Shown: positions 32,448 through 33,523 of the stretch, piece by piece
How positions within the stretch are numbered: position 1 is the stretch's first letter
Layout of the letters: each line of letters begins with the position of its first letter
Source: Deltaproteobacteria bacterium
Lineage (GTDB): Bacteria; Desulfobacterota; Syntrophia; Syntrophales; JAAYKM01
DNA length: 33,523 nucleotides
Assembly: GCA_012522415.1 (NCBI GenBank)
Contig: JAAYKM010000005.1
Coordinates: 1-33,523, forward strand
Direction of reading: 5' to 3'
Notes under the pieces: generated by a model
The model's database searches: none
What the model was told of the DNA's origin: nothing
The model's input: the letters and a program-made list of their open reading frames with translations, nothing else
Program-made: the position numbers and the translations under genes

Positions 32448-33034
32448 AACGTCTGGTCATTGCCTCGAAGAATCGGGGGAAAATCGAGGAAATTCGTCAT
32501 GTTCTCGATATGCCGGATATGAACATCCGATCCCTGGCGGACTACGATGCGGTGCCGAGGGTTGTTGAAAACGGACGGACTTACCTGGAAAACGCTTTGA
32601 AGAAAGCGAAAGCGTACGCCGATTTTACAGGCGAAGCCGTGCTGGCCGATGATTCAGGGCTGGAAGTTGATTCCCTTAATGGAGAACCGGGGATTCATTC
32701 AGCCCGTTATGCCGGCCCCGACGCCACGGATGAAGAAAACTATCTGAAACTGCTGAAAAAAATGGAAGGAATTCCTCCGGAAAAGAGGGGGGCCGGGTTC
32801 CGATGTGTCCTCGTTTTATACCGGCCGGGTGGCCGTTATGCATCTTTCGAGGGGTTCTGGCGGGGGATGATTCATACGAAGCCCCTTGGAAACAAAGGGT
32901 TCGGTTATGATCCCGTCTTTTTTCTGCCTGATCAGAGGCTGACGGCTGCGGAACTGCCGCCGGAAATGAAAAATGCGCTGAGTCACCGGGCGCAGGTGCT
33001 TGATCTGTTCAGGACATGGCTTCAGAACCACTGA
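32444..33034 (+). CDS. rdgB: XTP/dITP diphosphatase (RdgB/HAM1), probable CTG start
   Basis: Hydrolyses non-canonical purine nucleotides such as dITP and XTP so they are not put into DNA. From CTG 32444 the product has 196 residues, the usual length, beginning (M)[20 protein letters not shown] with the substrate-binding SKNRGK motif. This is followed by [59 protein letters not shown] and [11 protein letters not shown]. The first ATG in frame, at 32510, would remove the SKNRGK motif and the first strand, so it cannot be the functional start. CTGA overlaps the rph stop. CTG is a rare start codon; a point change or sequencing error from ATG or TTG is the alternative. Confidence 0.9.
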
Positions 33035-33046
33035 AATTTACACTGT

Positions 33047-33123
33047 CGGGGCGTAGCGCAGCCCGGTAGCGCGCCTGCTTTGGGAGCAGGATGTCGCAGG
33101 TTCAAATCCTGCCGCCCCGACCA
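33047..33123 (+). tRNA. tRNA-Pro (anticodon UGG), CCA encoded
   Basis: A 77-base cloverleaf. The acceptor stem is CGGGGCG/CGCCCCG with discriminator A and encoded CCA. The anticodon stem CCTGC/GCAGG encloses loop TTTGGGA, with anticodon TGG at 33081-33083. The T-loop GTTCAAATC is canonical. UGG reads all CCN codons with wobble. It is followed by a terminator and by an integrase relic, so its 3' end may be an integration site. Confidence 0.97.
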
Positions 33124-33131
33124 ATAAAATC

Positions 33132-33170
33132 AAGAGGTTATGGTTTGCCCGTAGCCTCTTTTTTATTTTT
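33132..33170 (+). terminator. rho-independent terminator after tRNA-Pro
   Basis: AAGAGGTTA (33132-33140) and TAGCCTCTT (33152-33160) form a 9-bp stem with one G-U and an 11-base loop, followed by TTTTATTTTT. The integrase relic on the other strand ends inside it. Confidence 0.8.
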
Positions 33171-33425
33171 GCTTGCGCCTATTGGTTGCGGTTTTGGTCT
33201 TTTGGGTGTAAATTTTTCTTCAATTTGAGTCAAGGCCGCCCGCTGGGATTCGTCTATCGAATGGAGGTAAATTTCTCTTGTCTTGGGGCTCTTGTATCGC
33301 AATAAACCGGATATTGCTTTCAGAGCCACTAGAGCTCACTGTGGAGTGTGTAAACCGGAAAAGCGAACGGTGGCGGCTTGTTTAAGGACCCTGGTGTAGT
33401 CGTATCTGAAAAACATCATAACCAT
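33138..33425 (-). pseudogene. decayed tyrosine recombinase/phage integrase, C-terminal part
   Basis: Read on the minus strand from 33425, one frame gives an integrase-like tail. It starts MVMMFFRYDYTRVLKQAAT then VRFSGLHTPQ, a TGA stop (33338-33336), AL, and then KAISGLLRYKSPKTREIYLH. The last part matches the family C-terminus with the catalytic Tyr in EIYLH. The conserved HxLRH box reads HTPQ-stop: Arg has become Gln and the second His is a stop. The linker to LLRYKS looks about nine residues short, and the usual His of GHKS is Tyr. Most of the enzyme is missing, so it is inactive. It points away from the tRNA with its C-terminus nearest to it, which fits a lost integrative element. Confidence 0.7.
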
Positions 33426-33435
33426 TTAATATTAA

Positions 33436-33466
33436 TTGACAATGATCATTTTTTATGCGATGTAAT
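33436..33466 (+). promoter_or_regulatory. sigma70-like promoter pointing out of the window
   Basis: Consensus TTGACA (33436-33441) is followed by TGTAAT (33461-33466) after 19 bases, or ATGTAA after 18. The 10-base palindromes TTAATATTAA (33426-33435) and AATGATCATT (33441-33450) flank or overlap it. The -10 lies in the left arm of an inverted repeat, so repression by a symmetric-site binding protein is plausible. An ATG at 33515 has no ribosome site. Confidence 0.4.
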
Positions 33467-33511
33467 TTGCAAGATTTTAACCCTTAACCCCTATTTTTCT
33501 TGCAAATTACA
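33461..33511. repeat. perfect 14-bp inverted repeat with 23-base spacer
   Basis: TGTAATTTGCAAGA (33461-33474) and its exact complement TCTTGCAAATTACA (33498-33511) enclose a 23-base spacer that contains TTAACCC twice in tandem (about 33477-33490). It may be a paired operator over the promoter, the end sequence of a small mobile element, or an RNA hairpin. The flanks show no obvious target-site duplication. Confidence 0.75.
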
Positions 33512-33523
33512 CAGATGAAACCA

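Follow-up and report, generated by a model that had tools for sequence, protein, structure and literature searches.

Insertion sequences must survive landing in transcribed genes without being switched on. In IS10 and IS50, an inverted repeat is situated near the transposase end of the element, and RNA that reads through from outside pairs over the translation start region; the element's own transcript begins too late to form that pairing. IS10 is a member of the IS4 family. The same family assignment is given for IS50 in the available portion of PMC9330008. The read-through protection of IS10/IS50 is not described in the available portions of PMC5006887 and PMC4265352.

Structured transposase leaders are described for several other elements, here as far as the accessible excerpts of the sources go. 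In the leader of IS200, one stem-loop occludes the transposase ribosome binding site and another terminates impinging transcripts (PMC3196728). The leader structure of ISPpu9 (5'-UTR, Asr9/Ssr9) lowers transposase translation (PMC8450116). In Amoebophilus, ISCaa2 and ISCaa9 are among five elements with stable hairpins predicted in their first 50 bp, which are proposed to interfere with expression (data not shown there); ISCaa9 is assigned there to the IS5 family, and one of the nearest elements to the IS5-family ISCaa3 is ISCaa2 (PMC3196728).

The feature considered here lies at the right edge of a deltaproteobacterial stretch of DNA of 33,523 nucleotides, analysed as a whole and called the window below. 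It is a leader hairpin, conserved as RNA, in an ordinary IS5-family element present in many copies. As in IS10/IS50, an inverted repeat is found near the transposase end, and the read-through RNA would be closed and the element's own RNA open. Unlike in those IS4-family elements, the arms flank a 23-nt loop just before the ATG and differ from relative to relative in a compensated manner, the left arm seems to include the -10 box, and the element is of the IS5 family. The stem-loop would cover the transposase ribosome site, as in IS200 (IS200/IS605 family), but no T run can be read after the stem. With ISPpu9 it has a structured transposase leader in common; that element differs in belonging to the IS110/IS492 family and, in the accessible excerpts, in having a structured native mRNA that is probably opened by antisense RNA. 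ISCaa2 and ISCaa9 resemble it in their predicted hairpins near the element's start and in being IS5 family (ISCaa9) or close to an IS5-family element (ISCaa2), whereas covariation and a link to the -10 box do not appear in the available text of PMC3196728.

A literature search brought up no account that we recognised of this leader in the IS5 group. The principle is known from IS10/IS50, and the promoter-in-arm design would be the distinct part here. The comparative evidence points to an IS5-type group that meets the problem of transcribed landing sites by means of an RNA hairpin in which the 5' arm apparently serves as promoter too. We regard it as an evenly balanced proposition that a large part of this group carries such an undescribed, covarying leader hairpin, with a left arm that contains or abuts the element's own -10 box, and that the arrangement constitutes a built-in test of transcript origin, making the transposase blind to host-gene transcription. 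This leads to an exact prediction, namely a transcription start within the left arm, and it offers a way to annotate such leaders, which would otherwise be taken for operators or transposon ends.

The insertion sequence and its ends

The features at the right edge of the window are the following.

33047-33123, + strand: tRNA-Pro (TGG) gene (tRNA detection, Rfam)
33132-33160: terminator-like stem after the tRNA-Pro gene
33138-33335, - strand: 65-aa open piece between the tRNA-Pro gene and the insertion sequence (phrog_1 integrase, E 0.016)
33398-33523, + strand: left end of a multi-copy IS5-family insertion sequence, inside which both contig and window stop (13 matches in its own genome)
33398-33412, + strand: left terminal inverted repeat AGTCGTATCTGAAAA; the right end reads TTTTCAGAACCGACT
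33436-33441, + strand: -35-like hexamer TTGACA of a putative promoter (best -35 in the promoter scan)
33461-33466, + strand: likely -10 hexamer TGTAAT inside the left arm, spacer 19 (putative; promoter scan)
33461-33474, + strand: left (5') arm of the leader hairpin (complementarity, folding, alignment)
33475-33497, + strand: hairpin loop, 23 nt (complementarity, folding)
33498-33511, + strand: right (3') arm, -17 to -4 before the start codon (complementarity, folding)
33515-33523, + strand: start of the transposase gene (ATGAAACCA), continued as MKPKQSESKKRQRDLF in the sister copy C44

The last 126-127 bases of the window recur in the same genome, with 13 matches including the window itself. 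Thirteen different flanks are joined to the same start, AGTCGTATCTGAAAA, read in one direction. All but one of these left ends (12/13) lie at, or no more than 40 bases from, contig ends, presumably because assemblers break at repeats longer than their word length. The copy in contig C34 is short and reaches only 35-36 bases into the element. The arm TGTAATTTGCAAGA, with at most one mismatch, has 23 matches in the genome, all inside copies of this insertion sequence: two arms in each of 11 copies and one in a remnant in contig C157. This remnant (L019, G000:C157:9976-10052) is a decayed left end of 77 bp, cut at the tip of the left hairpin arm; it lies upstream of a reading frame that, from the look of the protein, we take to be XdhC-like.

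A search for the inverse of the left terminal repeat, with at most one mismatch, found no right end; a loosened pattern succeeded, with TTTTCAGAACCGACT joined to unrelated flanks at nine contig ends. The short terminal inverted repeats typical of the IS5 family are thus present, as AGTCGTATCTGAAAA / AGTCGGTTCTGAAAA in this genome. Repeats of the same type bound the relatives L103 and L105, with a perfect 17-bp terminal repeat, TAGTCGTCCCTGAAAAA, in the full-length L103. In six of the nine right flanks, the first 4 bases equal the last 4 of one of 12 left flanks; at other offsets the mean agreement is 0.40, versus 6 at the true junction. A seventh right flank has 6 bp, AGGCAA, in common with a left flank, so that seven of nine right ends form a target duplication with a left end (4 bp in six, 6 bp in one). 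The 4-mer AAAT of one right flank fits three left flanks. Two right ends have no partner among the left flanks, and the window copy (left flank ...GTGT) has none among the nine right flanks. A short target duplication, another trait of the IS5 family, is therefore present in this element; for the relatives it reads CATT in L105 and was not seen in L103.

Elsewhere, the left end was matched in 3 of the 60 genomes of the relatives search, its own genome being one, and blastn against plasmids gave no match. An exact search of genome contigs for the arm pair returned none. An outward promoter-like sequence, TTGTCA-16-TATGAT (10 of 12), is found on the minus strand at 33442-33415 and could drive flanking DNA.

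The sequence-only reading had offered, as one of its two explanations, the ends of a miniature mobile element. Its mobile-DNA side is borne out by the 13 places with a left end, the 23 arm matches inside them and the target duplications. The ends themselves are elsewhere: AGTCGTATCTGAAAA at 33398 is the terminal repeat, and the element runs on into a transposase frame. The 14-bp repeat is no transposon end; it lies inside the insertion sequence, between terminal repeat and transposase start. The copy count that had been proposed to tell an operator from a transposon end accordingly gave the right answer as to mobile DNA, with many copies and target duplications, but the 14-bp arms are not the ends.

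The transposase and its relatives

A gene had also been expected to the right of the window; what a sister copy shows there is a transposase frame. The sister copy C44 runs 39 bases further than the window and continues ATG AAA CCA ..., read MKPKQSESKKRQRDLF, its ATG corresponding to window position 33515. The transposase of this element is known by 16 residues; the body of the insertion sequence was not found in the assembly when searched for by DDE_Tnp_1 and DUF772. A related start, MKPKQSPHRNRQHDL, occurs in genome G053, whose leader aligns with that of the window from before the promoter through the first codons, and other relatives have MKPK.. or MKPQ.. starts. The 457-aa transposase of the relative L103 scores 543.9 bits against NF033578 (cut-off 275) and also has matches to DUF772 and DDE_Tnp_1; a partial relative in L077 scores 175.2 bits, below the same cut-off. 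Through the NF033578 match of the full-length relative, the element, with its own transposase seen in part, is tentatively assigned to the IS5 family.

Of 155 genomes of the class, 18 contain relatives by searches with the N-terminus of a transposase of this type, which also has matches in 319 plasmid records; among the 40 plasmid matches listed, the transposase names, where given, are IS5 family or ISRm12. Unlike the leader studied here, the Bradyrhizobium-type leaders of the broader group are mostly without a clear stem at this place. One deltaproteobacterial MAG (G022) has relatives at four places (L102, L120, L124, L126); in one of these a stop codon follows immediately on the third codon.

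For the comparison of leaders, a genome scan gave 238 relatives. Eighty loci among them were retained; their sources include deltaproteobacteria, Verrucomicrobia, Planctomycetes, Omnitrophota and rhizobia. Fifteen with an identical leader were collapsed, and three (L148, L166, L167) had no start by rule; L148 and L166 were put back by hand and L167 was left out. Addition of the window's own leader, L033, L104 and L116 gave 68 leaders, and removal of L217, which is too short, left 67, which form 44 clusters at 72% identity. The TTG/GTG starts of L196, L208, L210 and L221 are doubtful, yet they were kept in the counts.

Conservation of the leader stem

The inverted repeat itself is as the sequence-only reading described it. 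Its arms, TGTAATTTGCAAGA (33461-33474) and TCTTGCAAATTACA (33498-33511), show 100% complementarity; 23 nt separate them, and the distance from centre to centre is 37. TTGACA is read at 33436-33441, a -10-like TGTAAT falls within the left arm at the long spacing of 19, and the two 10-bp palindromes (TTAATATTAA, 33426-33435; AATGATCATT, 33441-33450) and the two tandem occurrences of TTAACCC (33477-33490) are likewise present. The small palindromes and the tandem are treated as chance in AT-rich DNA: both are absent from the leaders of the closest relatives (L033, L146, L149, L150, L151, L154), and among the 11 copies in this genome that include the whole hairpin, 4 have TTAATATTAA disrupted (C44, the C73 end, C54 and C135).

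In the window this is the only perfect inverted repeat that has 14-nt arms and a loop no longer than 60. Such a repeat is held by 3 of 200 dinucleotide shuffles of the whole window and by none of 300 shuffles of the 126-nt end; a separate small run of six whole-window shuffles had one 14-arm repeat among them. In the region 32900-33523, Rfam at E up to 1 matched the tRNA alone, and the leader no described RNA family. Among the copies in this genome, 8/11 have a perfect stem and the remaining three a single A-C mismatch.

The leaders of relatives have a stem at the same place but with other letters. The arms are TTTGCAAGA/TCTTGCAAA in the window's element, TTTGCAGGA/TCCTGCAAA in L149, AAAATTACCGGG/CCCGGTGATTTT in L186 and TTTTCCCAGA/TCTGGGAAAA in L156. 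The leader studied here has a stem score of 32, versus 14.8 (sd 2.5) for its shuffles (z 6.7, reached by 0/100). In 36 of the 67 leaders the best stem is reached by at most 5 of 100 dinucleotide shuffles; in the other 31 it is reached by more than 5, and most Bradyrhizobium-type leaders are among these. Single leaders that beat their shuffles come from deltaproteobacteria, Omnitrophota, Verrucomicrobia, a Planctomycetes MAG and alphaproteobacteria.

In an alignment-free arm-swap test, each left region (-75..-31) of the 44 cluster representatives was combined with each right region (-30..-1). True partners score 22.89 and swapped ones 17.05 (z 8.9, 0/20,000 permutations). Four controls gave z values of -0.8, 1.6, 2.1 and 2.3; the two less flat ones (left versus coding, 2.1; shuffled left versus right, 2.3) indicate that shared composition may explain a small part of the signal. 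The own right region is the best partner of its left in only 8 of the 44 clusters, probably on account of similar arms in many relatives. In alignment A2, of the seven closest leaders, 7 of the 14 pairs are changed on both sides and 87.8% of cells are paired, versus 30.6 to 49.0% in slid versions; RNAalifold predicts the same 14 pairs. Compensating base changes, as in a structured RNA, are thus present. Alignments A3 and A4, of other leader groups, also fold into stems, with few double changes (2/11 and 1/11 pairs).

With a covariance model (R1), built from seven close leaders, 62 of the loci were searched, and 13 matches with E no higher than 1 were obtained. Three of them are very close leaders and one is L186 (E 0.0051); the E values of the other nine range from 0.06 to 0.87. 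Three of these nine are away from leaders (L152, L168, L212), and four are the minus-strand palindrome at leaders (L153, L161, L192, L205). The model finds few distant leaders, which suggests that the arms are too variable for one sequence-rich model. In Scalindua and Nitrospinaceae (L169, L173, L179, L181) the arms are different, GTTTTTGAG / CTCAAAAAC or similar; they bracket a -10-like box and end before GGAGG. Some clades, such as these two, appear to have rebuilt the leader hairpin with other arms.

G-U pairs are tolerated only in sense-strand RNA, and departures from Watson-Crick pairing were counted in stems chosen with G-U and A-C penalised alike. The 44 stems contain 43 G-U, 14 A-C and 29 other such cells; the binomial p of 7.7e-5 for G-U versus A-C is optimistic, as it counts related stems as independent, and rhizobial representatives supply many of the G-U cells. 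The 29 better stems have 39 G-U and 8 A-C cells (16 stems with more G-U, 3 with more A-C, the rest even). Swapped arms, with 164 G-U and 147 A-C, show little bias. The excess speaks against selection on the palindrome as protein-bound DNA, on a DNA cruciform or on an antisense transcript. The comparative data indicate that the leader stem is kept as transposase-sense RNA, with compensating changes.

A second IS5 group, with MGYK, MGFK or MAYK starts, was observed in L068, L069, L072, L073, L227, L228, L229 and L234. Here, TTTCCTTCA-like letters just past a CATATT-like box can pair with the GGAGG before the start. For 20 leader clusters of this group the arm-swap z is 2.7 (143/20,000) in a region chosen after looking and 0.8 in the original one; it is 1.9 for 12 clusters in the chosen region, and 1.7 for a mixed set of 16. 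On this weak evidence, the second group may have the same device by means of an anti-Shine-Dalgarno arm.

Promoter, folding and proposed mechanism

The putative promoter of the element consists of TTGACA and the TGTAAT that opens the left arm. With its spacer of 19, this -10 is not ideal; in alignment A2 the hexamer that matches the -10-like letters of relatives is 33459-33464. The own transcription start would fall at about 33471-33474. Comparable layouts occur in relatives: in L103/L189, TTGATT-17-TATAAT leads straight into TTGCCG, which is the arm, and the TATAAT of L161 and L205 does so into TTTGCAAG or TTTTGCAAGG. In a promoter scan of 24 leaders, only 10 have their start predicted no more than 8 nt from the inner end of the arm (0.21 in shuffled sequences). 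Hexamers that resemble a -10 box lie near the arm in 9 of the 44 leaders, versus 4.3 (sd 1.9, maximum 10) in shuffles, and in 7 of the 24 better stems, versus 2.4 (sd 1.5). Over the whole leader set, these counts lend moderate support to a promoter-in-arm layout.

Folded as RNA, the left end is predicted to reach -28.6 kcal/mol and to form 13-14 pairs of leader stem ahead of the start codon. For transcripts from 33471, 33473, 33474 or 33476 the predicted energy is -3.2 kcal/mol, and there is no leader stem; one from 33469 would retain a 6-bp stem (-9.6 kcal/mol). Positions -17..+3 have a mean unpaired probability of 0.24 when both arms are present and of 0.69 when the left one is missing. From -17 to -4 the region of translation start is covered by the 3' arm, as would befit protection against read-through, and the ATG is not in the stem. 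The unpaired probability of the ATG is 0.58 in the left-end fold and 0.55 without the left arm, and drops to 0.24 only when 60 bases of flank are included in the fold. No clear Shine-Dalgarno sequence is seen in this leader; L103 has CGGCAAATTT directly before its ATG.

The element with its ends and target duplications, the place of the hairpin before the start codon and the conservation of the stem as sense-strand RNA are shown by the data. The proposed course of events is the following. RNA reading through from a flanking host gene would start upstream of the left arm and carry both arms. The resulting hairpin would pair the ribosome landing site directly before the start codon, and little transposase would be made. 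With the -10 of the own promoter inside the left arm, the element's own transcript would begin at the last bases of this arm and would lack it; it would form no hairpin and be translatable. That the hairpin silences the transposase on read-through, with the own mRNA staying open, is in our judgement a likely reading, in which promoter, start and translational effect are deduced from the letters.

Alternative explanations

The most serious alternative is that the own mRNA also starts upstream of the left arm, so that the hairpin constantly lowers translation and is perhaps opened by another RNA, as could be the case for the 5'-UTR of ISPpu9. A structured leader with such an effect is reported for that element in the accessible part of PMC8450116; the promoter is only modestly supported here, and one lying further upstream would be possible. 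However, -10-like boxes overlap or abut the left arm in the window's element, L150, L161, L205 and L103/L189, an odd position for them if transcription had to include the arm. We consider this alternative unlikely, though it deserves to be kept in mind. Much less probable is a DNA operator, with a repressor, be it the transposase or a host protein, that closes the promoter by binding the half-sites. An operator would indeed look like a perfect palindrome that overlaps a promoter, but the conserved half-site letters that an operator would have are absent among relatives: the half-sites vary and yet stay complementary, and their departures from Watson-Crick pairing favour G-U over A-C. On these grounds the operator was rejected; it is also at odds with the confinement of all 23 arm matches to this element, so that no shared operator is seen. 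The sequence-only reading had proposed that a promoter under tight control serves an accessory gene just past the window. A promoter probably does overlap the left arm, but the gene is the element's own transposase, and the symmetry seems to act in RNA and not as an operator, judging from the stems of relatives and the G-U bias.

Two further explanations have next to no probability. Paired ends of a miniature mobile element (MITE) would fit a multi-copy sequence with target duplications; these duplications, however, flank AGTCG...CGACT and not the 14-bp arms, one copy runs into a transposase frame, and the full-length relative encodes a transposase of 457 aa. The MITE was rejected on the position of the duplications and on the transposase frame. 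A chance palindrome in an AT-rich leader, which the few shuffled windows with such a repeat might suggest, is refuted by the conservation with compensating changes across relatives. The preferred reading remains that of an RNA hairpin that would close read-through transcripts and leave the own mRNA open.

Genomic surroundings

To the left of the insertion sequence, between it and the tRNA-Pro gene, lies on the opposite strand the 65-aa open piece, which looks like the C-terminal end of a tyrosine integrase. This piece has no Pfam match, no plasmid match and no second copy in the genome. The insertion sequence may have landed next to, or in, the decayed integrase gene of an island at tRNA-Pro.
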